Origin: Alistipes sp.
Lineage (GTDB): Bacteria; Bacillota; Clostridia; Oscillospirales; Ruminococcaceae
Direction: 5' to 3'
DNA: 64,000 nucleotides
Assembly: GCA_023667265.1 (NCBI GenBank)
Contig: JAMPAJ010000001.1
Span: 632,873 to 696,872 of the forward strand
Numbering within the stretch: position 1 is the first letter of the stretch; each line of letters begins with the position of its first letter. Positions 17,901 to 53,721 of this stretch are shown here, in pieces. A model generated the notes under the pieces. The model saw only the letters and a program-made list of their open reading frames with translations. It did not search any database and was not told the DNA's origin. Both the position numbers and the translations under genes were made by a program.

Positions 17901-19142
17901 CTATTTAAATATAATAAGCAGCACCTGCGAAACTATTACCACCGAGATCAACGCTGCCGGATATGTCGCAGCATACGCTGTCGCTACATCCTCCGTGCCT
18001 GCGGAGCTGATAAGCGTGCCAAGCGCAGGTGTCGAGGTCATTCCGCCTGTTATCGAACCAAGATTGTTCAGCAGATTCAGCTTCAACACGTACTTTGCGA
18101 AGAAAAAGCCGATAACCATCGGGAAAATCGTCATAATAACACCGTAGAGGAAGTAAACAGGCTTGAAATACTCCACAAACCTTGCTCCTCCGGCTACGCC
18201 TGCACCAATAAGGAACAGCATAAGTCCGAATTCGCGGAATACCTTCAGCGTGCTGTCCTTTGGCATGATGCTCACTGAGCCTATGCGTCCGAAATGTCCG
18301 AAGATCAGCGCTGTAAACAGGCAGCCGCCCGTTGTTGTCAGTGAGAAATTGCCGAATTTTATCGAGCCGACGAAAATTCCGATAACCGCTGCAAGAGCAA
18401 ATGGCATGAAGCCGAAATCGTCCATGTGAACAAGCTTTCCCTTATACTCTTTTTTGCTGCCCTTTGAGTCTGCCGCAACGAGAAGCTGACGCTCCTTGTT
18501 CATGTCAGCTTTCAGGAACTTCGGCATAAGCTGAACAAAAAGTACAACTCCGATAACGCCGAAAAGATATGCGATACCGTAGCCAACAGTTACGAGATCC
18601 TCCAGCATTGCGCCGTTTGCCCTGTCTGCAACAGTCGCCTTTGCTGCGGAGAATGCAGGGGTGCTCGTGAGAGCTCCGGAGAGAAGTCCCACAAGGATCG
18701 AAGCCATATCCTCAGTAGAATCATCTGAAAATGCCTTGTTGATGAAAATACATCCGCCGCAGGCAACACCTGCCGACACGATGACCACAAGGGCGATGAG
18801 CACATAGCTCTTGAAATTCTTTTTGAAATTGGCAAAGAAATTCGGGCCTGCAATAAAGCCTACGGAGGAGACAAATAGTATCAATCCTATATTTTCCACG
18901 ACCTTCAAGGCACTTTTTATGAAGCTTTTTCCCTCGACCATAAGCTGCGCGCCCATGTCGCTGTAGAAAAAGCAGCCGTAAAGCAGAGCGATGATGAAAA
19001 CTCCGGCAGTTCCGAGAGAAATTCCTTTAATGTTGATCCTTCCCAGAAGATAGCCTACCGCGGCAATGGCGAAAATAGAGAACATAAAAAATGTTATTTC
19101 TTTAATGGAAATGGAAAAATCACCAATGGTAATAATATCCAT
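17901..19142 (-). CDS. Aspartate:alanine-exchanger-family carrier
   Basis: A 413-aa polytopic membrane protein with about ten to eleven helices in two homologous halves, each with the family motif (GALTSTPAFSA in the first, GGMTSTPALGT in the second). This fits the AAE family (2.A.81), which exchanges aspartate/alanine or, in relatives, succinate. The central TrkA-C domains of many members are absent; there is only a short hydrophilic loop (about 230-245). It lies downstream of frdA on the same strand, so a dicarboxylate exchange role (for example aspartate or fumarate in, succinate out) is plausible but inferred from context. Confidence 0.8.
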   Translation of the reverse strand: MDIITIGDFSISIKEITFFMFSIFAIAAVGYLLGRINIKGISLGTAGVFIIALLYGCFFYSDMGAQLMVEGKSFIKSALKVVENIGLILFVSSVGFIAGPNFFANFKKNFKSYVLIALVVIVSAGVACGGCIFINKAFSDDSTEDMASILVGLLSGALTSTPAFSAAKATVADRANGAMLEDLVTVGYGIAYLFGVIGVVLFVQLMPKFLKADMNKERQLLVAADSKGSKKEYKGKLVHMDDFGFMPFALAAVIGIFVGSIKFGNFSLTTTGGCLFTALIFGHFGRIGSVSIMPKDSTLKVFREFGLMLFLIGAGVAGGARFVEYFKPVYFLYGVIMTIFPMVIGFFFAKYVLKLNLLNNLGSITGGMTSTPALGTLISSAGTEDVATAYAATYPAALISVVIVSQVLLIIFK

Positions 19143-19397: not shown

Positions 19398-21002
19398 TTA
19401 TTTATCTTTTCTTGCGTAGTGAGGAAGAAGCATAGGTGAAACAGTCTCCCCTGCAGCTCCAGCCTCGTTAAGCTCGGCATTGAAGCTGTCGATGTGAGCA
19501 AGGGTCAGCTTCTCCGGAACTGCGGTATCCTTAGCCTTTGCAGCCGCATTCTTTCCTGCGTCTCTGCCGAATACGATAACATCAAGCAGCGAATTGCCCA
19601 TGAGTCGGTTTCTGCCGTGGATTCCGCCTGCGACCTCTCCTGCTGCGTAGAGATTTTCAACATCTGTTGAGCAGTCCACGCTGATATTCAGTCCGCCATT
19701 CTGATAGTGCAGAGTGGGATAAACCAGGATAGGCTCTTTTCTGATGTCAATGCCGTACTTGCCGAACATACGCATCATGGCAGGGATCCTCTTTTCGATA
19801 GTGCCCTCGCCGTGAATAAGCTCGATCATGGGCGTGTCAAGCCATACAGCCTTGCCGAGAGAGGTCTCAACGCCCTTGCCGCGCTCCTTGCACTCACGGA
19901 TTATTGAAGCTGCCGTAACGTCGCGGGTCTCCAGAGGATTCATAAATACCTCGCCGTCGATGTTGACCAGCTTTGCACCGAGAGAACGAACCTTCTCCGT
20001 AACAAGCGCGCCGAAGATCTGCTCGGGATAGCCTGTTCCGGTGGGATGATACTGGAGTGTGTCGGCATAGAGAAGTCTTGCGCCCACACGATAGCCCAGA
20101 ATAAGACCGTCGGCTGTTGCTCCGTAGTGGTTGGAGGTGGGGAAGCCCTGATAGTGGAGTCTGCCTGCGCCGCCGGTGGCGATAATAACCGTCTTTGCAC
20201 GCGCAACGAGCAGCTCCTTTGTCTCCATGTTCATGAGCACTGCTCCGGCAGCCCTTCCGTTCTCGTCCAGAATTATCTCAACTGCCGCCGTAAAATCAAT
20301 TACGGGAATACCTCTGTTGAGGACCTCGTCCCGGAGAGTACGCATTATCTCAGCTCCGGAATAGTCCTTTGCCGCGTGCATTCTCTTGCGCGACGTACCG
20401 CCGCCGTGAGTTGTGACCATTGTTCCGTCGGCTTCCTTGTCGAACTCAACTCCAAGCCTGTTCAGCCAGAGTATAGCCTCGGGAGCTTTTGTTACGAGAT
20501 TTTTTACAAGCTCCGGCTTTGCAGCAAAATGTCCGCCGCCGAAAGCGTCTATATAGTGGATAGCCGGGGAATCGTTGGGCTTATCTGCCGCCTGGATACC
20601 GCCCTCAGCCATCATTGTATTTGCGTCGCCGATACGGAGCTTTGTGACGATCATAGCCTTTACTCCGGCTTCGTCAGCCTCTATAGCTGCCGAAGCTCCT
20701 GCTCCGCCGCCGCCGATGATGAGAACATCCGTTTCATAGTCGGGGCTTGACAGGTCGACGTCAGCCGCGCTGATACGGCTTTTGCCCTGAAGCAACGCCG
20801 CAAGCTGGGTGGGGACCTTTTCTCCCTTGTTCACTCCGGCAGAAAGAACCGTAAACTCGTCCTGCTTATAGTCCGGGTGGAACTGTGCAAGAAGCGCGTC
20901 CTTCTCGTCAGCCGTCATTCTTCTCGGTTCAAGCTTTGCATTCGCCTCGCGCTTCTCGGCAACGACCTTTGCAAGCTCGTTCAGCTTTTCAATTTTGTAC
21001 AT
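19398..21002 (-). CDS. frdA: Fumarate reductase flavoprotein subunit, soluble type
   Basis: The 534-aa flavoprotein starts at ATG 21002, 7 bp after AAGGAGG. It has about 90 N-terminal residues before the FAD-binding loop GGGGAGAS (97-104), the substrate/FAD elements HGGGTSRKRMHA and LQYHPTG, and the C-terminal GGIHGRNRLMGNSLLD. The usual covalent-FAD histidine in SHT is replaced: here the stretch reads ANT (127-129), so FAD should be non-covalent, as in thiol:fumarate reductases and L-aspartate oxidases. No membrane anchor gene is present. It is the last gene of the hdr-flx-frd run, so reduction of fumarate to succinate is the likely direction. Confidence 0.85.
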   Translation of the reverse strand: MYKIEKLNELAKVVAEKREANAKLEPRRMTADEKDALLAQFHPDYKQDEFTVLSAGVNKGEKVPTQLAALLQGKSRISAADVDLSSPDYETDVLIIGGGGAGASAAIEADEAGVKAMIVTKLRIGDANTMMAEGGIQAADKPNDSPAIHYIDAFGGGHFAAKPELVKNLVTKAPEAILWLNRLGVEFDKEADGTMVTTHGGGTSRKRMHAAKDYSGAEIMRTLRDEVLNRGIPVIDFTAAVEIILDENGRAAGAVLMNMETKELLVARAKTVIIATGGAGRLHYQGFPTSNHYGATADGLILGYRVGARLLYADTLQYHPTGTGYPEQIFGALVTEKVRSLGAKLVNIDGEVFMNPLETRDVTAASIIRECKERGKGVETSLGKAVWLDTPMIELIHGEGTIEKRIPAMMRMFGKYGIDIRKEPILVYPTLHYQNGGLNISVDCSTDVENLYAAGEVAGGIHGRNRLMGNSLLDVIVFGRDAGKNAAAKAKDTAVPEKLTLAHIDSFNAELNEAGAAGETVSPMLLPHYARKDK

Positions 21003-21015
21003 ATCCGCAGCCTCC

Positions 21016-21690
21016 TTACTTCTCGATTTCCCGGGTATTATAAAGCTCCTTGATCTCCTCGATCGGCTTCTGCATAAGACCCTCGATAAGCTCTTCAAAT
21101 GTGCCGTCGTTTATCTCTTTTACTCTGTCCTCGAGATGGCCGCACTCCGGAGCAAGATACTTGCCGTTGAGACGACGCGCAAGCATAGCTACCTGGGGAT
21201 GCGAGATTCCGGCAGGACAGCGTGAGGAGCAGACTCCGCACATTACGCAGTCGAAGCTGAGCTCTGCGCACTTTTCATACTCTCCGCGCTGAGCATATGC
21301 AATGTACTGCATAACGTTAAGCTCCTGAGTACAAGCCTTTGTGCAGGCGTTACAGCCGATGCAGGCGTAAATTTCCGGATAAAGCTGCATCATTATCTGC
21401 TCTGTAGGCTTTATCTCCTCGATATTATATATCTGCTTTACAAGCGGGAAGAAGGGCAGAGTTGCAACATACATTCCCTCCTGCACCTCAGTCTGGCAGG
21501 CAAGACAGGCGTTAAGCTGCTGCTGACCCTTGATCCTGTAGATAGTAGCGCAAGCGCCGCAGAAGCCGTTTCTGCATCCGCAGCCTCTTACAAGCTCATA
21601 TCCGGCATATTCCATAGCCGTCATTATCGTAAGACCTGCCGGCACTTCATATTTCTTGCCGAACAGATACACATTTACCATATTATCCAT
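21016..21690 (-). CDS. frdB: Fumarate reductase iron-sulfur subunit, TfrB/FrdB-like
   Basis: The 224-aa protein has an N-terminal plant-type [2Fe-2S] domain (CGCRNGFCGAC at 37-47, CLAC at 62-65). A HdrC-like helical domain follows with two Cys-rich clusters (CIGCNACTKAC and CVMCGVCSSRCP), both spaced for [4Fe-4S], rather than the [4Fe-4S] plus [3Fe-4S] of membrane FrdB. It would carry electrons to FrdA, 13 bp downstream. The lack of a quinone-site anchor and its place after HdrABC/Flx suggest a cytoplasmic electron donor. Confidence 0.85.
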   Translation of the reverse strand: MDNMVNVYLFGKKYEVPAGLTIMTAMEYAGYELVRGCGCRNGFCGACATIYRIKGQQQLNACLACQTEVQEGMYVATLPFFPLVKQIYNIEEIKPTEQIMMQLYPEIYACIGCNACTKACTQELNVMQYIAYAQRGEYEKCAELSFDCVMCGVCSSRCPAGISHPQVAMLARRLNGKYLAPECGHLEDRVKEINDGTFEELIEGLMQKPIEEIKELYNTREIEK

Positions 21691-21705
21691 GATATTCTCC
21701 TTTTA

Positions 21706-22533
21706 TCAATACTCGTCGGGCAGCTCGTCAAGCTGGTCAAAACGGAAAACGGGACCGTCCTTGCACACATACTTGTGACCGATATTGCATCTTCCGCATT
21801 TGCCCACGCCGCACTTCATACGCAGCTCCATTGTGGTGTAGACCTGAGTTTCGGTAAAGCCAAGCTCCTTTAAGCCTGCAAGCGTAAACTTTATCATGAT
21901 AGGAGGTCCGCAGACGAGAACCGTCTTGTTAGTCGAAGGGTTAAGCTCCTTGACGTAGTTCGGAACGAAGCCAACGTGTCCGTCCCAGCCCTCCTGGGGA
22001 TTGTCGATAGTGAGGTTGACCTGGATATTCGGGTCGGCAGACCACTCGTCGATGATCTCCTGATAGTCCACAAGGTCGTCCTTTGAGCGCGAGCCGTAGA
22101 CGATCTGAACGTCGCCGTAGTTTGCACGGTTGTCACGAACATAGTTGATAACTGAGCGAAGGGGCGCAAGACCGATTCCTCCGGCAACAAAAAGAAGATC
22201 CTTGCCTTTAAGCTCGGTCTCTACGGGGAAGTAATTGCCGTATGGGCCTCTTATTGTTATCTGCTGTCCCACGTCCATAGCGTGAAGCCATGACGTAAGG
22301 CAGCCGCATTTCTTGATGCTGAATTCCATGTATTCCTTGTTTGTAGGCGACGATGTAATGGAAAACATACCCTCGCCTACCCCGGGAATGGAAAGCATTG
22401 CGCACTGTCCGGGCATATGCTCGAAAACCTTGCCGCCCTCCAGTGCGTTTACACGGAAGGTCTTTACGTCGGGAGTGTCCTGGCGTATATCGGTAACAAC
22501 GCCTATCAGCGGAATTAAAGTATCGTTATTCAT
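21706..22533 (-). CDS. flxA: FAD/NAD(P)H-binding oxidoreductase subunit, FlxA-like
   Basis: This 275-aa ferredoxin-reductase-fold protein has an FAD-binding barrel (MFSITSSPT), a NAD(P)-binding domain (LLFVAGGIGLAPLRS and VLVCGPPIMIK), and a C-terminal [2Fe-2S] motif (MKCGVGKCGRCNIG). It resembles AsrB, hydrogenase gamma and FlxA, the NADH entry subunit of the Flx-Hdr complex. Its ATG touches the flxB stop, with GGAGGT inside flxB. In context it should take electrons from NADH and pass them to the flxB/C clusters. NADH versus NADPH is not resolved by sequence. Confidence 0.85.
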   Translation of the reverse strand: MNNDTLIPLIGVVTDIRQDTPDVKTFRVNALEGGKVFEHMPGQCAMLSIPGVGEGMFSITSSPTNKEYMEFSIKKCGCLTSWLHAMDVGQQITIRGPYGNYFPVETELKGKDLLFVAGGIGLAPLRSVINYVRDNRANYGDVQIVYGSRSKDDLVDYQEIIDEWSADPNIQVNLTIDNPQEGWDGHVGFVPNYVKELNPSTNKTVLVCGPPIMIKFTLAGLKELGFTETQVYTTMELRMKCGVGKCGRCNIGHKYVCKDGPVFRFDQLDELPDEY

Positions 22534-23553
22534 TTACTTGACCTCCAGTGCTTTCATTACCTTGACAATGTTCATAGATATAGGGCACTTTGCAAGACAG
22601 CGTCCGCAGCCTACGCAGCCGAACTCGCCGTTGTTGTTCGCAGGAAAATACACGAGCTTGTGCATGAATCTCTGGCGGAAACGTTCAAGCTGTGACGTTC
22701 TGGGGTTGCCGTGTGCCATTTTCGTGAAGTCCGAGTACATACAGGAATCCCAGCAGCGGAAACGCTTTATGCCGTGTCCCGTGTCGAAATCCCGGATGTC
22801 GTAGCACTGGCAGGTAGGGCAGACGAACGTGCAGGTGCCGCAGCCGATGCAGGCTTCGGAAAGCTCCGCCCATTTCTCGGAATTAAAGTGCTCGTTAAGC
22901 TTATCTCCGCCGAAGGAATCGGTAGAAAGGTTTGCAAGAGGAAGCTTCTTCATGACGCTTCTCGCCTGCTCCTGAACCTGGGCAAGCTTGGCGGCGTCGC
23001 CCTCTTCCAGGAGACCTTCGATAGATCTCACAAATGCCGCACCCTTTTCCGTGCGGTCAAGGAAGAAATAATTCTCACCGTCGGAAAATACCGAAACATC
23101 GCCCTCCGGAACTGTCGGGTCGATGCCAAAGGCCGTACAGAAGCAGGTCTCCGCAGGCTTTGTGCAAGCCATGGTTACGATAGTTCCGTGATCGCGGCGG
23201 TTTTTATAGAAGCTGTCCACAGGGTCGCTTAGGAAAACCTTATCCAGGATGCCGAAGCTTCTCGCGTCGCAGGCACGGACGCCGAAAACGACGAAATCCT
23301 CGTTTTCCTCGCGGATATCCTTTACCTCGATGCTCTTGCCCTCGACCTTAAATTCAGCAATATTCTCCGTCTGTGGAAAGAAAAAGTCCTTTGCGGAGCG
23401 AACCGTGTTCAGCGCATTGCTCATAGTCATGCCGCTTTCGTATTTTTTATACTCAGCCGCATTCGGCTCACGGTCAATGGGGATATAGAGAGTCTGCTTC
23501 TCCGCGATAGCATCGAACAGCTCATTAAGCCTTGAAGCCGCAATTTTCAGCAT
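22534..23553 (-). CDS. flxB: 4Fe-4S dicluster electron-transfer subunit, FlxB-like
   Basis: The 339-aa protein resembles AsrA/hydrogenase beta subunits: a long N-terminal domain (VFGVRACDARSFGILD, a hallmark) and C-terminal clusters CIGCGTCTFVCPTCQCYD and CVGCGRCLAKCP. Its start overlaps the flxC stop by one base (TAATG). It would bridge the flavin subunit FlxA and the Hdr module. Confidence 0.83.
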   Translation of the reverse strand: MLKIAASRLNELFDAIAEKQTLYIPIDREPNAAEYKKYESGMTMSNALNTVRSAKDFFFPQTENIAEFKVEGKSIEVKDIREENEDFVVFGVRACDARSFGILDKVFLSDPVDSFYKNRRDHGTIVTMACTKPAETCFCTAFGIDPTVPEGDVSVFSDGENYFFLDRTEKGAAFVRSIEGLLEEGDAAKLAQVQEQARSVMKKLPLANLSTDSFGGDKLNEHFNSEKWAELSEACIGCGTCTFVCPTCQCYDIRDFDTGHGIKRFRCWDSCMYSDFTKMAHGNPRTSQLERFRQRFMHKLVYFPANNNGEFGCVGCGRCLAKCPISMNIVKVMKALEVK

Positions 23554-24524
23554 TACTCAGCACCCCTTTCATGTACGATCGAAGGCTCGCAGTCCTCCGT
23601 GTTATAGTCGTTCAGCGGCGCTCTGGACGTTGTGTCTGCGCCAGCCTGATATTCGCCGTAGAGGCTGTTTATGTCCTTGATGAACTTTCTGTTCAGCAGG
23701 TGGAGCGGAATATTCTGGGGACATACTCTTGAGCATTCTCCGCAGTCGGTGCATCTTCCGGCAACATGGAACGCCCGGATTATATGGAACATATTCTCCT
23801 CGAAGCTGTCCGCAGCCGCCTTCTGGCTCACTCCGGAGCTGGGATTGTCGAAAACGCAGCTCTCGCAGGTGCAGGCAGGACAAACGTTCCGGCAGGCGTT
23901 GCAGCGAATACACTTTGAAAGCTCGCCTCTCCAGAAGTCATAACGCTCCTGTGCCGTCATGTTCTCCAGCTTTTCCACCATATCGAAGCGGTTGGAGTCC
24001 AGCACGTCGCCCTCTTCGCCCATAAGCTCGTCATAGGCAACGTGCTTCTTGCTCTTGCAGCTCTCGCACTTGCCGCTTATCGCCTCGTAGAAGGGCATGG
24101 TCTCCGTGCCGTAGATAGTCTCTATTTTCAGGGTATAATTCTCGTTCCTGACGGAAAGAATACCGGTTATGCCCTTTGCCCTGATCTTCTCGACGTCGAT
24201 CTTCGGACCGCCGGGGATTCCGATAACATAGACATTTTCCCGGATGATCCTGTGCTCCTTTACAAGCTGATTGAAGCTGTATGTATCGCAGGGCTTCAGA
24301 AAAGCGAGTATTCTGCCCTCTTTCCGGGATTCCTTTACCAGATACTTTGAAACGTTCGCCTGGGTCAGGTCGTCGCAGACAAAGTCCTGCTCAAGTTCCT
24401 CTGCTGTATTGAAAACAGCAGGCGTAATATCATAAGCAAATTCGCCCCTTTTCCAGCCCATGACGCGATCGACCGTGCCGTCAGCCAGAAGCTCCTTTGC
24501 GCGCTTTATTATTGCTTCCTGCAT
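23553..24524 (-). CDS. flxC: 4Fe-4S dicluster electron-transfer subunit, FlxC-like
   Basis: The 323-aa protein is a second AsrA/FdhB-like subunit with FLKPCDTYSFNQLV near the N-terminus, a KCESCKSKK cysteine pair, and two ferredoxin clusters (CIRCNACRNVCPACTCESC and CTDCGECSRVCP). It overlaps flxD by 16 bp and flxB by 1 bp. The duplicated flxB/flxC arrangement matches Flx clusters of sulfate reducers and other anaerobes. Confidence 0.8.
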   Translation of the reverse strand: MQEAIIKRAKELLADGTVDRVMGWKRGEFAYDITPAVFNTAEELEQDFVCDDLTQANVSKYLVKESRKEGRILAFLKPCDTYSFNQLVKEHRIIRENVYVIGIPGGPKIDVEKIRAKGITGILSVRNENYTLKIETIYGTETMPFYEAISGKCESCKSKKHVAYDELMGEEGDVLDSNRFDMVEKLENMTAQERYDFWRGELSKCIRCNACRNVCPACTCESCVFDNPSSGVSQKAAADSFEENMFHIIRAFHVAGRCTDCGECSRVCPQNIPLHLLNRKFIKDINSLYGEYQAGADTTSRAPLNDYNTEDCEPSIVHERGAE

Positions 24525-24949
24525 CTCAGGTCCTCCAATCTTCTGTTGGGTCCAAGCTTCTTTACTTCGTCAACAAAGCTGTTCATAACAGCGGCGAACT
24601 TTGCGCCCTCCGCTGCGGAGACCCATTCAAGACGTGTTCTGTTTCGCTCGATACCTAGGAAATCAAGCATACTGTAGAGAAGCGTTATCCTTCTTCTTGT
24701 GAAGTAGTTGCCCGATGTGTAGTGGCAGTCGCCAGGGTGGCAGCCGCAGATGATAACGCCGTCCGCACCCTTCTGGAAAGCGCGGAGAATGAACATGGGA
24801 TTTACTCTGCATGAGCAGGGAACTCTGATTATCTTTACATTTGCCGGGTAATTAAGTCTGTTAGTACCCGACAGGTCAGCGCCCGCATAGGAGCACCAGT
24901 TACAGCAGAATGCAACGATAACAGGCTGAAAATCATTATTTACTTGCAT
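24509..24949 (-). CDS. flxD: MvhD/FlxD-like iron-sulfur adaptor subunit
   Basis: The 146-aa protein has the MvhD hallmarks: AFCCNWCSYAGAD near the N-terminus, VPCSCRVNP and ICGCHPGDCHY. MvhD-type subunits hold a [2Fe-2S] cluster and dock the electron donor onto HdrA. It overlaps hdrA by 10 bp and flxC by 16 bp. It marks this as a true Flx-Hdr complex rather than an isolated reductase. Confidence 0.88.
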   Translation of the reverse strand: MQVNNDFQPVIVAFCCNWCSYAGADLSGTNRLNYPANVKIIRVPCSCRVNPMFILRAFQKGADGVIICGCHPGDCHYTSGNYFTRRRITLLYSMLDFLGIERNRTRLEWVSAAEGAKFAAVMNSFVDEVKKLGPNRRLEDLRCRKQ

Positions 24950-26931
24950 ATTGCGTCTACCTCCGCCATGATCTGACTATTTGAGAAGCCGTTCAGGTCC
25001 ATAGCTCCCGAAGGACAAGCTACCGTACAAGCGCCGCAGCCCTGGCATACGGCAGGATTAACGCTTGCAACACGGCGTATCGCCGTAGTTCTGTCGGGCA
25101 TCCTGAACTCCTTATCCTGATATGTGATAGCGCCGTAGGGGCAAACCTTTTCGCAGGACGAGCAGCCGTTGCACATAAGCTCATCGGAATGAGCAACGCA
25201 TGGGTTGCAGGTGATGCTGTTCTTTACCAGCAGACCGATAGCCTTTGCCGCAGCAGCGCTTGCCTGAGCAACAGTTTCGGGAATGTCCTTGGGTCCCTGA
25301 CAGGCGCCTGAGAGGAAAATTCCTGCGGTTGCCGACTCTACGGGACGAAGCTTCGGATGAGCCTCGGTAAAGAAATCGTTGGTGTCCATCTGTGTGGTCA
25401 GCATAGTCGCAAGAGGACGAGCCGTCTTATCCGGCTCGATAGCCGTTGCGAGAACCACCATATCGGCATTTATATGAAGCTGCTCGTTGGAGAGCAGGTC
25501 GGAAGCCTGAACGTCGATCTTACCGTCCGACTTCGGAGTTACCTTTCCGACCATTCCCTTGATGTAGTGAACATCATACTGCTCAACGGCACGGCGGTAG
25601 AATTCGTCGAAATTCTTTCCCGGGGTACGCACATCAATGTAGAATACGTACACCTCTGTATCGGGATATTTCTCACGGATAAGCATAGCGTGCTTTGCAG
25701 TATACATACAGCATATCTTCGAGCAGTAGGGCTTACCCTTTTCGTCGTCGCATCTCGAGCCTACGCACTGAACAAAAACGATAGTGTGGGGATGAGTTTT
25801 GTCCGAGGGACGGAGAAGCGTGCCGCCGTTAGGACCTGCGGCATTCATAAGACGCTCCAGCTCCAGAGACGTTACAACATCCGGACAGAGGCTGTAGGCG
25901 AACTCGTTGTACTTGTTGGGCTTTATGGGATTGAATCCGGTAGCTACAACGATCGCGCCGTATTTCTGCTCAACGAATCTGTCCGTCTGCTTATAGTCGA
26001 TAGCTCCCACAGAGCAGACCTTTGAACAGATGCCGCATTTGCCATTTTTCAGCATCATGCAGTAATTCGGGTCGATAGTTGCGACCTTCGGAACAGCCTG
26101 TGCAAAGGGAATATATACTGCTGTGCGGTTGTCGAGACCCATATTGAACTCGTTGGGAACTTTTTTCATGGGGCATTTTTCCGTACAAAGTCCGCAGCCG
26201 GTACACTTTGTCTCGTCAACATAGCGAGCCTTTTTCTTGATAGTTACAGTGAAATTGCCCACGAAGCCCTTGACGTCGCTTACCTCGCTGAACGAGTGGA
26301 TAGTGATGTGTTCGTTCTGGGCAGCCTCGACCATTTTCGGGGTAAGGATGCAGGCAGCGCAATCCAGCGTCGGGAACGTCTTGTCTATCTGCGCCATTTT
26401 TCCGCCGATAGTAGGCTCTTTTTCAACAATATCAACATCAAAGCCTGCTTCCGCGATATCCAGAGCAGTCTGGATTCCGGCGATTCCTCCGCCGATAACA
26501 AGGGCTCTCTTTACGACAGGGCTTTCTCCGGCGGTAAGCGGCGCGTTGAGGTGAACCTTTGCAATGGCGGCTTTTCCGAGAATTACCGCCTTATCCGTAG
26601 CCGAAGCAATGTCCTTGTGGATCCAGGAGCACTGCTCGCGGATATTGGCGATCTCCACCAGATAAGGGTTAAGTCCGACGGATGCGGCTGCCTTTCTGAA
26701 TGTGTTTTCGTGCATACGCGGTGAGCAGGAGCAGACAACAACTCCTGTGAGCTTATGCTCTCTGATCGCGTTTTTCACAAGATCCTGTCCCGATTCGGAG
26801 CACATATACTGGTAATCCTGGGAGATAACGACTCCCGGCTCATGAGAAAGAGCCTCGGCAACAGCCTTTACGTCTACCGTAGCCGCGATATTTGTTCCGC
26901 AGTGGCAGACAAAAACACCTATTCTCTGCAT
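24940..26931 (-). CDS. hdrA: Heterodisulfide reductase subunit A, flavin bifurcation subunit
   Basis: The 663-aa protein has an N-terminal domain (FVCHCGTNIA, CSCSPRMHENTFR), a thioredoxin-reductase-like FAD domain (ALVIGGGIAGIQTALDIA), an inserted ferredoxin (CTGCGLCTEKCP plus CGICSKVC), the FVQCVGSRC and YCSKICCMYTAKHA stretches typical of HdrA, and two C-terminal [4Fe-4S] sites (CNGCSSCEKVCP, CQGCGACTVACP). HdrA FAD is where electron bifurcation happens in characterised complexes. There are no methanogen-type cofactors expected in this organism, so the high-potential acceptor must be something other than CoM-S-S-CoB; fumarate via FrdAB is the candidate. Confidence 0.92.
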   Translation of the reverse strand: MQRIGVFVCHCGTNIAATVDVKAVAEALSHEPGVVISQDYQYMCSESGQDLVKNAIREHKLTGVVVCSCSPRMHENTFRKAAASVGLNPYLVEIANIREQCSWIHKDIASATDKAVILGKAAIAKVHLNAPLTAGESPVVKRALVIGGGIAGIQTALDIAEAGFDVDIVEKEPTIGGKMAQIDKTFPTLDCAACILTPKMVEAAQNEHITIHSFSEVSDVKGFVGNFTVTIKKKARYVDETKCTGCGLCTEKCPMKKVPNEFNMGLDNRTAVYIPFAQAVPKVATIDPNYCMMLKNGKCGICSKVCSVGAIDYKQTDRFVEQKYGAIVVATGFNPIKPNKYNEFAYSLCPDVVTSLELERLMNAAGPNGGTLLRPSDKTHPHTIVFVQCVGSRCDDEKGKPYCSKICCMYTAKHAMLIREKYPDTEVYVFYIDVRTPGKNFDEFYRRAVEQYDVHYIKGMVGKVTPKSDGKIDVQASDLLSNEQLHINADMVVLATAIEPDKTARPLATMLTTQMDTNDFFTEAHPKLRPVESATAGIFLSGACQGPKDIPETVAQASAAAAKAIGLLVKNSITCNPCVAHSDELMCNGCSSCEKVCPYGAITYQDKEFRMPDRTTAIRRVASVNPAVCQGCGACTVACPSGAMDLNGFSNSQIMAEVDAICK

Positions 26932-26943
26932 ATTGTCTCCTCC

Positions 26944-27327
26944 TTACTTCGTATATTTTCTGAACGCCGTAACGATAGCCTGCTGCGGCAGATCCTCGTC
27001 CAGCATATCGGGTATCTGGTCGGGTGTCAGGTGATTTCCGCCCTGCTTACGTACAGCTGCAAGACGTACAGCCTCTACCACCTTTGCCGGCTCGACGCCT
27101 CTGGGGCATCGCTCAACGCAGGCAAAGCAGGTCAGGCACTTGTACAGCGAATCAGAGCTGAGCAGCGGCTCGATATTTCCCTTTTCCACCATGTAGACAA
27201 ACTGGTGAGGATGATATTCCATCTCGTCGTAGGAAGGGCAGGTCGCGGAGCATTTTCCGCAGCGCATACACTTCCTGACGTTTACGCCGCTCGTTATATT
27301 TATCCATTCTTTATCGAATTTATTCAT
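26944..27327 (-). CDS. hdrC: Heterodisulfide reductase subunit C
   Basis: The 127-aa subunit has two [4Fe-4S] motifs (CMRCGKCSATCPSY and CLTCFACVERCPRG) on the short helical HdrC scaffold. It overlaps hdrB by 8 bp and starts the electron path from HdrA towards HdrB. Length is short compared with many HdrC but complete. Confidence 0.9.
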   Translation of the reverse strand: MNKFDKEWINITSGVNVRKCMRCGKCSATCPSYDEMEYHPHQFVYMVEKGNIEPLLSSDSLYKCLTCFACVERCPRGVEPAKVVEAVRLAAVRKQGGNHLTPDQIPDMLDEDLPQQAIVTAFRKYTK

Positions 27328-28114
27328 TGCTTTCCTCCTTCAGACCCAGAGCCTCCGCAAGAAGCTCTGTGAAGTAGTAAACAGGCATATCGCTGCCGGA
27401 ATTTTTCTTCAGGTTATACAGGCAGAGCGGACAGGCTGTAATTATCATTTCTGCGCCCATGTCCTTTGCGGAAGCCATGACAGCTCCGCTTCTCTTTGCC
27501 GCCTGAGCCTTATCCTCCATTGCGATATAGCCGCCGCAGCATTCGTTCCGCTGTGCGTATACCACGGGAGTTCCGCCGACAGCCTTGATGAAATCCTCCA
27601 TTATCGTTGGATTTTCCGGATCGTCCATAGCAAGCGCCTTTGAGGGGCGGAGAAGCAGGCAGCCGTAATATGCGGCGATCTTCTTTCCCTTGAGCGGATT
27701 CGTAACCTTAGCCGCAAGGTTGTTGAAGCCCACAACGTCCCGGAGCAGCTCCAGATAGTGGAGCACCCTTGTCTCGCCCTGATAAGCCTCTTCAAGTCCG
27801 AGGTACTGCTTTACCTTGTTCGCCATAGCCTCATTCCGGGAAATATCGTAATTTGTCTGCTTTATAACATTGTGGCAGGCGGAGCAGACGGTAACAAGTC
27901 CCTCCGAATCCTTAGCCGCCATAAGAGTTCTCACGGCGGAGAGCTTTGAGCCGACCTCGTTTGCCGCCGTGGAATACGCGCCTCCACAGCACTGCCAGTT
28001 TTCCGGCTCCACAAGCGAAATGCCCAGAGCCTCCGCAGAGGATCTTGCATATACGTCAAGGTCCTTCGCCTTAGTCCGCAGCGTGCAGCCGGGATAATAT
28101 GTAAAAGTCTGCAT
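27320..28114 (-). CDS. hdrB: Heterodisulfide reductase subunit B
   Basis: The 264-aa subunit keeps both CCG domains in full: Cys10, Cys42-Cys43, Cys77, Cys80 and Cys152, Cys192-Cys193, Cys228, Cys231. In characterised HdrB each set binds a non-cubane [4Fe-4S] cluster used for disulfide reduction. With no CoM/CoB in bacteria, its disulfide substrate is unknown, or it relays to FrdAB, as suggested by methanogen TfrB, which fuses FrdB-like and HdrB-like parts. It starts 54 bp after fumarase, behind an AT-rich hairpin. Confidence 0.9.
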   Translation of the reverse strand: MQTFTYYPGCTLRTKAKDLDVYARSSAEALGISLVEPENWQCCGGAYSTAANEVGSKLSAVRTLMAAKDSEGLVTVCSACHNVIKQTNYDISRNEAMANKVKQYLGLEEAYQGETRVLHYLELLRDVVGFNNLAAKVTNPLKGKKIAAYYGCLLLRPSKALAMDDPENPTIMEDFIKAVGGTPVVYAQRNECCGGYIAMEDKAQAAKRSGAVMASAKDMGAEMIITACPLCLYNLKKNSGSDMPVYYFTELLAEALGLKEESNE

Positions 28115-28140
28115 AAAATCAACCTTTCTGTTATGGCAAT

Positions 28141-28162
28141 CTCTAAAAAGAGGTTTTTAGAG
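28141..28162 (-). promoter_or_regulatory. Intercistronic hairpin between fumC and hdrB
   Basis: A perfect 9-bp AT-rich stem, CTCTAAAAA/TTTTTAGAG with a short loop. There is no following T tract, so it may be a processing or mRNA-stability element that sets different levels for fumarase and the hdr genes. Confidence 0.4.
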
Positions 28163-28168
28163 GCTGCC

Positions 28169-29545
28169 TTATGCCATTTCCTCGGGGTGGAATACCTCGT
28201 CGAATTTTTCAGCCGTAAGGAAGCCCAGCTCAACGCAGGCGTCCTTCAGGGAAATATTGTCCTTGAACGCTTTCTTGGCGGTCTTTGCGGCATTCTCGTA
28301 GCCGATATAGGGATTGAGGGCAGTAACGAGCATGAGAGAATTGTAGAGATTGTGGTGCATTTTTTCTCTGTTCGCCTTGATGCCTACAGCGCAGTTGTTG
28401 TTGAACGCCATGATCGACTCCGAGAGAAGTCTTGCGGACTGGAGGAAATTATAGGCGCAGACGGGCATGAAAACATTCAGCTCGAAGTTGCCCTGTGAAG
28501 CCGCCATTCCCACAGCCACATCGTTGCCCATGACCTGTACGGCAACCATAGTCACCTGCTCGCACTGCGTAGGATTGACCTTTCCGGGCATGATAGACGA
28601 GCCGGGCTCGTTCTCTGGAATAAAGATTTCTCCGAGACCGTCTCTCGGACCGGAAGCAAGCCAGCGCACATCGTTCGCTATCTTCATCATGTCAGCCGCA
28701 AGAGCTTTAAGCGCGCCGTGAGCAAAGACGATCTCGTCCTTTGAGGTCAGTGCGTGGAATTTATTTTCGGCAGTTCTGAAATCCTTGCCTGTAAGTTCGC
28801 TTACAGCCTCAGCAGCCTTTTCGGCAAAGCCCTTGGGAGCGTTAAGACCTGTTCCGACGGCAGTTCCGCCCAGAGCAAGCTCTTTAAGCTCTGCACAAGC
28901 GGCAGCTACCATCTTCTTATCCTTTTCAAGAGAGCTTCTCCAGCCGCTTATCTCCTGAGAAAACTTTATGGGAGTAGCGTCCTGGAGATGAGTACGTCCG
29001 CTCTTTACGATGCCCTCGTTCTCCTTTTCGAGACGTCTGAATGTGGCGATAAGAGTATCAACAGCCGGGATAACCTTATCCTCGATGGCGATAACGGCGG
29101 CAATGTGCATAGCTGTGGGGAAGGTGTCGTTCGATGACTGGCTCATGTTAATATCGTCGTTGGGGTGAAGCAGCTTAGAGCCTGCTATCTCATTTCCTCT
29201 GTTGGCGATGACCTCGTTTGCATTCATGTTCGACTGCGTACCGCTGCCCGTCTGCCATACGACAAGCGGGAAATGGTCGTTAAGACTTCCGCTTATCACC
29301 TCGTCGCAGGCGGCGGAAATTGCAGCCAGCTTTTCATCGGTCATTTTCTCCGGCTTTAACTGATGATTCGCGAGAGCCGCAGCTTTTTTCAGTATACCGA
29401 AGGCGTGGGTTATCTCCCTGGGCATAGTCTCGATGCCTACGCCGATAGGGAAGTTTTCGTGACTGCGCTCAGTCTGGGCAGCCCAGTACTTGTCGGCAGG
29501 CACTTTTACCTCGCCCATAGAGTCATGTTCAATACGATATTCCAT
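28169..29545 (-). CDS. fumC: Fumarate hydratase class II
   Basis: The 458-aa protein belongs to the fumarase/aspartase superfamily, with the signature GSSIMPGKVNPTQCEQ, the TGSGTQSNMN substrate loop and SGRTHLQDATPI. It interconverts malate and fumarate without an Fe-S cluster. It lies between rex and the hdr-flx-frd genes on one strand, feeding fumarate to the reductase. AAGGTGGT precedes the ATG. Aspartase was considered, but the loops and context favour fumarase. Confidence 0.93.
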   Translation of the reverse strand: MEYRIEHDSMGEVKVPADKYWAAQTERSHENFPIGVGIETMPREITHAFGILKKAAALANHQLKPEKMTDEKLAAISAACDEVISGSLNDHFPLVVWQTGSGTQSNMNANEVIANRGNEIAGSKLLHPNDDINMSQSSNDTFPTAMHIAAVIAIEDKVIPAVDTLIATFRRLEKENEGIVKSGRTHLQDATPIKFSQEISGWRSSLEKDKKMVAAACAELKELALGGTAVGTGLNAPKGFAEKAAEAVSELTGKDFRTAENKFHALTSKDEIVFAHGALKALAADMMKIANDVRWLASGPRDGLGEIFIPENEPGSSIMPGKVNPTQCEQVTMVAVQVMGNDVAVGMAASQGNFELNVFMPVCAYNFLQSARLLSESIMAFNNNCAVGIKANREKMHHNLYNSLMLVTALNPYIGYENAAKTAKKAFKDNISLKDACVELGFLTAEKFDEVFHPEEMA

Positions 29546-29566
29546 TTTACACTACCACCTTATCTG

Positions 29567-30220
29567 TTATTCTTCATTTCCGGAATTATCCGATGCGGAT
29601 CTTAACCGGTATGAGAGAGTCGCAAGGCTGTCGCCGAGATGAACGTTTTCCACCGCAACATCCTTGTGATTTATTTTCAAATCGTAGTGGGTAAAGTTCC
29701 AGAAGGCCCTTATACCCATATCTATAAGCCTGTCGGTCTCCCTTGCAGCCGCCTCCTTCGGGATGCAGAGAATCGCTCCGACTGGATGATTTTCCCGGCA
29801 AAAATCTTCAAGGCTGCTTGTATCTGAAATTTTCAGATCGCCTATTTTTTCTCCCACCATTTCCGGGCTGGAGTCGAAAATTCCTATAAGCGCAAAGCCC
29901 TTGCTTTCAAAGTCAATATGTGCCGCAATAGCTCTCCCCAAATTTCCGGCACCAAGCAAAATCATGGGTGTAGCCTTGTCAAGCCCCAGTATTCTGCCGA
30001 TCTCGGCTCTGAGTCCGTTGACGTTATAGCCGTAGCCCTGTTGTCCGAAGCCTCCGAAGCAGTTGAAATCCTGGCGTATCTGCGAGGCGGTAAGCCCCAT
30101 TTTCTCTGCCAGCTCCCGGGAGGAGATGCGGACGTATCCGTTCGCCTGGAGTTCGCCCAGAAAGCGATAATATCTGGGAAGTCTCCTGATAACGGAATTT
30201 GATATTGTATTTTTAGACAT
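29567..30220 (-). CDS. rex: Redox-sensing transcriptional repressor Rex
   Basis: The 217-aa protein has an N-terminal winged helix (SNSVIRRLPRYYRFL; ASQIRQDFNCFG) and a Rossmann NAD(H)-binding domain (MILLGAGNLGRAI) ending in the domain-swapped helix. Rex senses NADH/NAD+ and represses fermentation and reductive genes when NAD+ dominates. I chose ATG 30220, preceded by GGAAAGGA, rather than a TTG 15 bp upstream. Rex heads the fumarase-Hdr-Flx-Frd run (21 bp to fumC), so it probably controls it and itself. I could not find a clear TTGTTAA-type operator upstream. Confidence 0.95.
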   Translation of the reverse strand: MSKNTISNSVIRRLPRYYRFLGELQANGYVRISSRELAEKMGLTASQIRQDFNCFGGFGQQGYGYNVNGLRAEIGRILGLDKATPMILLGAGNLGRAIAAHIDFESKGFALIGIFDSSPEMVGEKIGDLKISDTSSLEDFCRENHPVGAILCIPKEAAARETDRLIDMGIRAFWNFTHYDLKINHKDVAVENVHLGDSLATLSYRLRSASDNSGNEE

Positions 30221-30242
30221 TTCTATCCTTTCCAATTATACC

Positions 30243-30365
30243 AATCCTCTTAATTCCGATAGACAAGGGCTATCGAAATTTAGCCGCCGTAGGCGGCGTA
30301 GCCGATTGTAGCCTGCGCAGCAGGCATTCCCCTAAAAGCCGATGTCTATCGGATTTCAGGGGATT
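30243..30365. repeat. 123-bp fold-back element
   Basis: Ends form inverted repeats with 20 of 23 matches (AATCCTCTTAATTCCGATAG at the left against AATCCCCTGAAATCCGATAG read in from the right). Two inner hairpins are present (GCCGCCGTAGGCGGC and GCCTGCGCAGCAGGC). It separates rex from the icd terminator and would lie in or near the rex 5' leader. Confidence 0.65.
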
Positions 30366-30384
30366 AGTATTACACACAGAGACT

Positions 30385-30438: not shown

Positions 30439-31650
30439 TTACATCATTTTGTCAAGATTCTTCTTGATCTCCTCAAGGAAAGTCTTTGAATCTACCTTTC
30501 TCTTGTTTTCAAGCTTCGAGATGAGGTAGAGGTCGCCGGTCATTACGCCGTTTTCGATAGTTTCGATAGTAGCCTTTTCCAGCTTGTCTGCAAATTCGCA
30601 GAGCTCGGGAGTTGCGTCAAGCTCGCCTCTCTTGCGGAGCGCGCCGCTCCATGCGAAAATAGTTGCAACAGAGTTTGTGGATGTCTCCTCGCCCTTGAGA
30701 TACTTGTAGTAATGACGCTGAACCGTACCGTGAGCAGCCTCATACTCGTAAATGCCGTCGGGCGAAACGAGAACGGAGGTCATCATGGCGAGCGAGCCGT
30801 AAGCCGTAGATACCATATCGGACATAACATCGCCGTCATAGTTCTTGCAGGCCCAGATATAACCGCCGTTCGAGCGGATAACACGCGCTACAGCGTCATC
30901 GATAAGTGTGTAGAAATACTCTATGCCGGCAGCCTCGTATCTCTCCTTGTACTCGTTGTCATAGATCTCCTGGAAAATATCCTTGAAGCGGTGGTCATAC
31001 TTCTTGGAGATAGTATCCTTTGTTGCGAACCACACGTCCTGCTTCAGGTCGAGACCATAGTTAAGGCAGGCTCTTGCGAAGCCGGCGATGGAGTCGTCCA
31101 GATTGTGAAGTCCCTGGATGATTCCGTCGGACTTTGCAAAGTCGTGGATAAGCTCACGTGTCTCCGTGCCGTCGGGATTTGTGACCACAAGCTCAGCCTT
31201 GCAGCCCTTTTCAACGCGCATTTCGGTGTTCTTGTAAACATCGCCGTAAGCGTGACGGGCAATTGTGATAGGCTTTGTCCAGGTCGGGATATACGGCTCG
31301 ATACCCTTTACGATAATGGGAGTTCTGAAAACAGTACCGTCCAGAGCAGCTCTGATAGTACCGTTGGGAGACTTCCACATCTGTGTAAGGTTATACTCCG
31401 GCATTCTTGCCGCATTAGGAGTTATCGTAGCGCACTTTACCGCAACGCCGTACTTCTTTGTAGCCTCGGCGGAGTCGATAGTTACCTGATCCTTTGTCTT
31501 TTCACGATATTCGAGTCCAAGGTCGTAGTATTCGGTATTCAGCTCAACATAGGGAGTGAGAAGAATATCCTTTATCCACTTCCAAAGGATACGTGTCATC
31601 TCGTCGCCGTCCATCTCGACGAGGGGTGTTTTCATTGTTATTTTTGCCAT
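30439..31650 (-). CDS. icd: NADP-dependent isocitrate dehydrogenase, eukaryote-like type
   Basis: The 403-aa enzyme converts isocitrate to 2-oxoglutarate. It starts [20 protein letters not shown] at ATG 31650 behind GGAGGT. It has KCATITPN, the [16 protein letters not shown] phosphorylation-loop region, [19 protein letters not shown] and [12 protein letters not shown], all typical of the approximately 400-aa dimeric type seen in mitochondria and many anaerobes. Together with aconitase upstream it makes the oxidative branch for glutamate synthesis. Cofactor is inferred from the family. Confidence 0.93.
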
Positions 31651-31726
31651 TGGTTTATACCTCCGAAAAATTACTATCTGCTTTTCTCCCCGAAGCAGCA
31701 CATCCGGAAAGATGTGCAATGCTGGC

Positions 31727-53346: not shown

Positions 53347-53372
53347 AAAAAGAGAGCCGAAGCTCTCTTTTC
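53347..53372 (-). terminator. Terminator of rnpB
   Basis: AAAGAGAGC, CGAA-type loop and GCTCTCTTT directly at the rnpB 3' end, with a T run on the minus strand. Confidence 0.9.
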
Positions 53373-53373
53373 A

Positions 53374-53721
53374 TGACCAGACCGATAAGCCGGGTTCTGT
53401 CGTGTGCGGCAATTTATCTACGCTTACCGTCGCCGATAAGCTCAAGCCGTCATTACCCTGTATCCCCCGAGCAGGAGTTAAGACACAAAGTACCAATAGA
53501 CGTTGCATCGGGTAGGGTTTACATAGCTATGCAGTCTCCTGCACACTGGTGAGCTCTTACCTCGCCTTTCCACCTTGACCGCGCCGTTTCCGGCATGGCT
53601 GAATATCTCTGTTGCACTTGCCCTAAGGTCGCCCTCGGCTGCCGTTAGCAGCTACCTTGCTCTGTGATGCCCGGACTTTCCTCATAAACTTAACGTTTTC
53701 CGCTGCCGCATAGTCTGCTCA
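53374..53721 (-). ncRNA. rnpB: RNase P RNA
   Basis: On the minus strand the conserved GAGGAAAGTCCGGGC block, AAGGTGGAAAGGCGAG-like core and the 3' end AACCCGGCTTATCGGTCTGG are all present. The 5' GAGCAGACT pairs with the 3' GGTCTGGTC (P1). Length is about 348 nt, type A-like. A perfect promoter places the transcription start at about 53721. It processes the 5' ends of pre-tRNA. Confidence 0.96.

Follow-up and report, generated by a model that had tools for sequence, protein, structure and literature searches.

A gut Ruminococcus operon with a probable role in quinone-free succinate formation coupled to ferredoxin reduction

A bifurcating fumarate reductase with ferredoxin coupling has already been proposed for Pseudoclostridium thermosuccinogenes, from the same gene set as the one treated here (PMC7282089, in its passages on the operon, which cite a 2019 preprint, 10.20944/preprints201912.0288.v1), and in tubeworm symbionts a complex of flx-hdr products with those of korABCD and tfrAB has been suggested in the relevant passages of PMC6315080. 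Here we describe a further case of this already proposed system, with new anatomical and comparative evidence, in a 64,000-nucleotide stretch (the window, whose positions serve as coordinates throughout) of contig JAMPAJ010000001.1, from an assembly filed as Alistipes sp. and placed by GTDB in Ruminococcaceae. Eleven genes on its minus strand follow one another in the order rex, fumC, hdrB, hdrC, hdrA, flxD, flxC, flxB, flxA, frdB and frdA. Judging from sequence, we put at roughly two chances in three the reading that they encode a cytoplasmic, quinone-free, NADH-driven, flavin-bifurcating fumarate reductase for succinate fermentation, in which case this gut Ruminococcus gene set would form succinate with no membrane quinone involved and reduce ferredoxin at the same time. 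New here are an FrdA lacking the flavin-binding His, the second [4Fe-4S] motif of FrdB, and the occurrence of FrdBA beside other possible donors in other Firmicutes.

The sequence-only reading had described eleven genes on one strand with overlaps or gaps of at most 54 base pairs (bp), and coordinates, gene families and measured gaps bear this out: intergenic distances run from -16 to +54 bp (rex-fumC 21, fumC-hdrB 54, hdrB-hdrC -8, hdrC-hdrA 12, hdrA-flxD -10, flxD-flxC -16, flxC-flxB -1, flxB-flxA 0, flxA-frdB 15, frdB-frdA 13). Families were assigned with Pfam and NCBIfam, most NCBIfam scores lying below the curated cut-offs, and inspection by eye finds a stretch resembling a ribosome-binding site ahead of most starts. 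A YidE/AspT-type permease gene on the same strand, 255 bp past frdA, belongs to the operon and should be counted as a member.

The synteny of hdrABC-flxABCD-frdAB proved to be conserved and is not confined to one strain. A scan of named genomes yielded at least 588 stretches encoding an FrdA relative, the best 80 of which were retained as loci, and gene order was judged in the 61 of these that extend beyond 7.3 kb on the upstream side of frdA. In 60 of them the nine core genes share a strand and are ordered precisely as hdrBCA-flxDCBA-frdBA, which indicates that the grouping did not arise by chance; the 61st (L158) has the same order plus an extra hdrA-like gene past frdA. The exact core order recurs in every one of another 14 class loci whose flanks were long enough to judge, picked from FrdA matches among relatives and the class. 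Immediately upstream of hdrB lies fumC in 55 of 59 loci, and in 44 of 61 a permease gene follows frdA at a distance of less than 1 kb. Titles of the best 80 of at least 588 stretches are mostly those of Ruminococcus, Oscillospiraceae and Clostridia metagenome-assembled genomes, with one Treponema and one Bacteroidaceae; R. flavefaciens FD-1, with the same operon (L096), is among them.

At more than 70% identity, FrdA occurs in 24 of 40 near relatives (21 of 24 in the genus, own genome included, and 3 of 16 in the order), two of these matches being partial and at contig ends. Across the class it was found in 54 of 391 genomes (own included; E <= 1e-75), and across the phylum in 40 of 398 (own included), one of them a 40% match without the N-terminal part. 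HdrA is present in 54 of the 391 class genomes (E <= 1e-120), and 52 genomes have both proteins (exact test p ~1e-59, ignoring relatedness and scoring presence in the same genome, not adjacency). The mismatches are G109 and G398, with FrdA only, and G061 (a 49% HdrA) and G071 (62% complete), with HdrA only. Flx-Hdr and FrdBA are thus strongly linked within the class to which the window belongs, and only loosely outside that class.

All seven subunits of FlxABCD-HdrABC, with their domains, are encoded in the one cluster. Its HdrA, the sole full-length HdrA of the genome, aligns over nearly its whole length to 5odc_A (E 3.3e-208). The 22 Cys from C191 onward are invariant in 84 of 84 rows, C9, C11, C44 and C69 are missing solely in rows truncated at contig ends, and C101 is kept in every row but that of L114 (83 of 84), which has Val. 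HdrC has eight Cys invariant in 85 of 85 rows, and the ten Cys of the two complete CCG sets in HdrB are invariant in 88 of 88.

The claim that FrdAB comes without membrane anchor genes also stood, since Pfam and NCBIfam scans, confined to the operon proteins, matched no anchor-type family. In an alignment of 120 FrdA rows, the dicarboxylate-site residues of the complex II type are kept in 119 or 120 rows each: H319, E336, R360, H432 and R466, which align with the Escherichia coli active site (1kf6), in all 120, and T335 in 119. The His that links the flavin in E. coli FrdA corresponds to Asn128 in the window, and Asn occupies this position in 119 of 120 rows. About 90 residues precede the motif for flavin adenine dinucleotide (FAD), which begins between residues 91 and 96 in 105 of 120 rows; in another 13 the preceding stretch is longer, probably in part from mechanical open reading frame (ORF) starts, and two were unmatched by the pattern. 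Pfam gave no C-terminal SDH domain match in FrdA, and the best NCBIfam model was TfrA, at 346.9 bits below its cut-off of 718. The second matches of the FrdA search, at ~31-38% identity, we take to be NadB.

FrdB (224 amino acids, aa, with no Pfam match to CCG) combines a [2Fe-2S] domain with a pair of CxxCxxCxxxC motifs, both complete in all 116 of 116 rows aligned, and its C-terminal half aligns best, among solved chains, to RnfC. By its motif, the second [4Fe-4S] site would stand in for the [3Fe-4S] site of quinone-linked enzymes. The protein, which the sequence-only reading listed as FrdB, is not of the classical SdhB/FrdB type.

In the proposed mechanism, hydride from NADH would enter at FlxA, and FlxB, FlxC and FlxD would relay electrons to the FAD of HdrA, where they would be split. 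The low-potential branch would lead to ferredoxin, from which Rnf could build an ion gradient. Along the other, high-potential branch, electrons would pass from HdrC through HdrB and FrdB to FrdA and fumarate. Overall, 2 NADH + fumarate + oxidised ferredoxin (2 e-) would give 2 NAD+ + succinate + reduced ferredoxin, with fumarate supplied by the fumarase and succinate perhaps exported by the permease. Using standard potentials, we obtain -18 to -49 kJ/mol for the coupled reaction over the range tried, which makes it feasible. RnfC is present in the genome (444.6 bits). A genome search, with MenD and MqnA/MqnD as the menaquinone markers, returned no SdhB/FrdB model match above cut-off, a single MenD match whose 69.5 bits fall far short of the 244.2 required, and no match to the MqnA/MqnD family; as the assembly is 96% complete, these absences are likely rather than certain. 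A quinol-linked fumarate reductase was rejected, since the operon proteins include no anchor family, FrdB lacks a [3Fe-4S] site by its motifs and neither menaquinone marker passed its cut-off. According to passages of PMC7282089, the succinate operon of P. thermosuccinogenes is raised about 4-fold under CO2 limitation, not significantly for all subunits, and added H2 abolished most succinate, which its authors read as fitting coupling.

Outside the class, 24 regions were fetched from 23 genomes, of 39 with matches, giving 23 family loci with L196 set aside. The fetched stretch contains hdrB in 11 of these. Four hold the whole Flx-Hdr set, upstream in L192 and downstream in L184, L191 and L198, the latter three sharing with a class genome (L201) a second order of the same nine genes, frdBA-hdrBCA-flxDCBA. 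Three Firmicutes genomes (L181, L183, L189) have hdrABC upstream of frdBA with very large HdrA-like proteins (1092, 1098 and 1489 aa); that of L189 bears a Fer4_20 domain as in GltD-type proteins, and L183 was placed by clustering. In L185, L187, L188 and L190, hdrC-hdrB stands directly ahead of frdB-frdA while hdrA is absent from the stretch, lying elsewhere in all four genomes, an arrangement that points to HdrB as the neighbour of FrdB.

Other partners also occur. The frdBA pair adjoins NapC-type cytochrome genes and a gene for a flavin mononucleotide (FMN)-binding iron-sulfur protein in L186, only an FMN-binding protein gene in L199, only a NapC-type gene in L193, and a gene for a cytochrome b561-type protein in L194, L195 and L197 (from a domain scan in L194 and by clustering in the other two); these six loci suggest membrane-linked versions of the same reductase. 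No recognised donor lies directly beside frdA in L177-L180, L182 and L200, whose neighbours were scanned in part and, for L182, not at all. Among these, frdBA accompanies class I fumarase and malic enzyme genes in L177 (scanned) and L178 (by clustering), and a pyruvate carboxylase gene in L179 (scanned) and L180 (by clustering). L200, the second FrdA-like copy in genome G516, has no frdB alongside and adjoins AtuA and DUF4387 genes; its product may be a reductase for another substrate.

Anywhere in the genome, HdrA was found in 16 and HdrB in 15 of 20 outside-class genomes with FrdA. When a tree was quickly built from 56 FrdA rows, nine partner labels (outgroup included) needed 11 changes, against a minimum of 8 and a shuffled mean of 26.2; this strong clustering indicates that changes of partner are real but few. 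Tentatively, and with rather more doubt than confidence, we would see FrdBA as a family of its own, apart from SdhAB, NadB and TfrAB, with non-covalent FAD, the ~90-residue extension and an FrdB of one [2Fe-2S] and two [4Fe-4S] clusters. It would act as a plug-in acceptor that Firmicutes have paired with different donors: Flx-Hdr, HdrCB, either cytochrome c or an FMN iron-sulfur protein, and cytochrome b. In gut Clostridia it would be part of a bifurcating complex, where the non-cubane clusters of HdrB would form a wire to FrdB and not a disulfide site.

Several observations weigh against a bifurcating complex. Twelve of the 23 outside-class loci have no Hdr gene in the fetched stretch, and at the thresholds used neither HdrA nor HdrB was detected in four of the 20 genomes (G794, G496 and G714, of one genus, and G493); FrdBA is therefore not obligatorily bound to Hdr. 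The path from NADH through FlxA and HdrA to ferredoxin and HdrBC-FrdAB, as first drawn from the DNA, is partly supported: it fares well on linkage, co-occurrence, kept ligands and residues, Rnf and the lack of a menaquinone marker above cut-off, and less well on FrdBA without Hdr outside the class. A close class member, L148 (7996-9597 of that locus), alone has His at the flavin-linking position. No Rex operator-like site was found ahead of the operon: an operator pattern, allowed up to three mismatches, matched the window three times, no more than chance, and never near the operon. No biochemistry or activity test of such a complex was found in the literature searched. In the passages cited, PMC7282089 describes the outcome of a redox experiment with Na2S as opposite to that with H2, and PMC7174568 has R. 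flavefaciens succinate dropping beside methanogens, which other explanations cover too.

A further point of this kind is that HdrB keeps all ten CCG Cys, as expected of a real disulfide reductase. This retention keeps in play a two-step thiol route, in which Flx-Hdr would reduce a disulfide (of a small thiol or a protein) while bifurcating to ferredoxin, and FrdAB would separately oxidise the thiol and reduce fumarate, as methanogen Tfr does with coenzymes M and B (CoM/CoB); electrons going to ferredoxin and thiols are also mentioned in the same passages of PMC7282089. FrdB, however, has no CCG domain of its own, so that FrdAB would lack a thiol-oxidising site unless HdrB served both, and hdrCB adjoins frdBA even where hdrA is absent; we consider this route unlikely. 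Less likely again is a plain NADH:fumarate reductase, a single complex reducing no ferredoxin: it would have no need of HdrA, and HdrA here retains the Cys with counterparts, by alignment, in solved HdrA from bifurcating complexes, even though uncoupled transfer from NADH to fumarate, at -60 to -68 kJ/mol on the standard potentials, would be strongly downhill. That Flx-Hdr and FrdAB are separate enzymes sharing only their regulation, co-made for the reductive branch, is very improbable, for despite the four genomes with FrdA but neither HdrA nor HdrB, and the cytochrome neighbours elsewhere, the same nine genes stay together in two different orders, HdrA of the operon type is rarely without FrdA (2 of 54), and the operon offers no other obvious acceptor for HdrBC.

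In Ruminococcus, Rex may couple expression of the bifurcating reductase to NADH/NAD+. The description of the operon as Rex-headed applies to the window and to 18 of 55 loci, all titled Ruminococcus, but not to the other loci; nor does rex occur in every locus so titled (L094 and L165 lack it). The operator matches were dropped as proof of Rex control, and scans for promoters and terminators gave counts near chance.

Upstream of rex on the same strand (30439-31719) lies an isocitrate dehydrogenase-like gene, icd, named by sight, which is likewise upstream in the 18 Ruminococcus loci with rex. Between icd and rex, abutting the start of rex, is an element of ~130 bp (30238-30370) with 34-nucleotide inverted ends, 82% complementary, whose inner part recurs at about ten genomic places including itself (13 pieces); it looks like a miniature inverted-repeat transposable element, and a TATAAT-like box is seen by eye at its rex-side end.

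The features are collected in Table 1. The frdA start is likely the ATG at 21002, after AAGGAGG, rather than the TTG at 21098 with which the mechanical ORF opens, and that of rex likely the ATG at 30220, where the sequence-only reading also ended the operon, the mechanical ORF reaching 30235. Elsewhere in the window, a class A RNase P RNA gene occupies 53370-53721 on the minus strand.

Table 1. Features of the operon, with positions in the window and the basis of each assignment
Feature	Position	Strand	Basis
rex, redox-sensing repressor	29567..30220	-	Pfam Put_DNA-bind_N, CoA_binding
fumC, class II fumarase	28169..29545	-	Pfam Lyase_1, FumaraseC_C
hdrB, two CCG domains	27320..28114	-	Pfam CCG, 2 stretches; aligns to solved HdrB
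hdrC, two [4Fe-4S] motifs	26944..27327	-	NCBIfam HdrC, below cut-off
hdrA, FAD and [4Fe-4S] subunit, candidate bifurcation site	24940..26931	-	Alignment to 5odc_A
flxD, MvhD-like linker subunit	24509..24949	-	Pfam FlpD, 3.6e-55
flxC, iron-sulfur subunit, F420-formate dehydrogenase beta-like	23553..24524	-	Fer4 domains; 9t1s_M, 7bkb_E matches
flxB, iron-sulfur subunit, sulfhydrogenase-beta/AsrA-like	22534..23553	-	Pfam Fer4_22; NCBIfam ShyB/HydB/AsrA below cut-off
flxA, FAD/NAD(P)-binding, [2Fe-2S] site	21706..22533	-	Pfam NAD_binding_1, FAD_binding_6, DHODB_Fe-S_bind
frdB, [2Fe-2S] domain and RnfC-like pair of [4Fe-4S] motifs	21016..21690	-	Pfam/NCBIfam, solved-chain alignment, motifs
frdA, fumarate reductase flavoprotein, ~90-residue N-terminal extension	19398..21002	-	Pfam/NCBIfam, 1kf6 alignment, row alignment
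YidE/AspT-type permease, candidate succinate exporter (substrate inferred only)	17901..19142	-	Pfam Asp-Al_Ex

If the bifurcating reading is right, succinate formation would yield extra reduced ferredoxin and, via Rnf, ion-motive force without quinones, which would alter how energy and hydrogen are budgeted in rumen and gut fermentation. Many Clostridia genomes carry the operon, and the titles of many name a gut or rumen isolate, so that such a result would bear on a large group. R. flavefaciens makes succinate from cellulose (PMC7174568, in the passage concerned), and no paper naming the operon for this species was found in the literature searched. Wide spread among gut bacteria, together with odd subunits, makes the idea of bifurcation worth testing.

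Among known systems, complex II (FrdAB/SdhAB) has the dicarboxylate-site residues in common with FrdA, whereas its covalent FAD His is replaced here by Asn, its [3Fe-4S] site is missing by motif, and no anchor subunit was found among the operon proteins. The 8-methylmenaquinol:fumarate reductase SdhABE is distinguished by SdhE, against whose model HdrB scores 129.9 bits, the cut-off being 500. Methanogen TfrB joins FrdB-like and HdrB-like parts, and its model matches FrdB, HdrC and HdrB of the window; in TfrAB, however, the HdrB-like domain is fused, whereas here HdrB is separate and FrdA falls under the TfrA cut-off. FlxABCD-HdrABC of Desulfovibrio vulgaris has the same seven subunit types by name, with matching domains, and is reportedly tied to ethanol metabolism, going by the title of Ramos et al. 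2015, whereas nearly all class genomes with the HdrA described here have FrdBA as well. HdrABC-MvhAGD and HdrABC-Fdh (5odc, 7bkb, 8rvu) contain counterparts of HdrA, HdrB and FlxD, and their FdhB chain resembles FlxC, but their donor is H2 or formate and their acceptor CoM-S-S-CoB. Tubeworm symbionts, in the passages of PMC6315080 concerned, have fumarate reductase genes (tfrAB) interspersed with flxABCD-hdrABC, there with korABCD in a reverse tricarboxylic acid cycle cluster, whereas the window operon has a fumarase and a permease and is found in fermenters. By description, the succinate operon of P. thermosuccinogenes matches that of the window: its consecutive locus tags (CDQ83_RS03365-RS03315) comprise one fumarase, Flx-Hdr, a pair of fumarate reductase genes and a putative transporter; no rex is mentioned for it in those passages of PMC7282089, whereas rex heads the operon described here.

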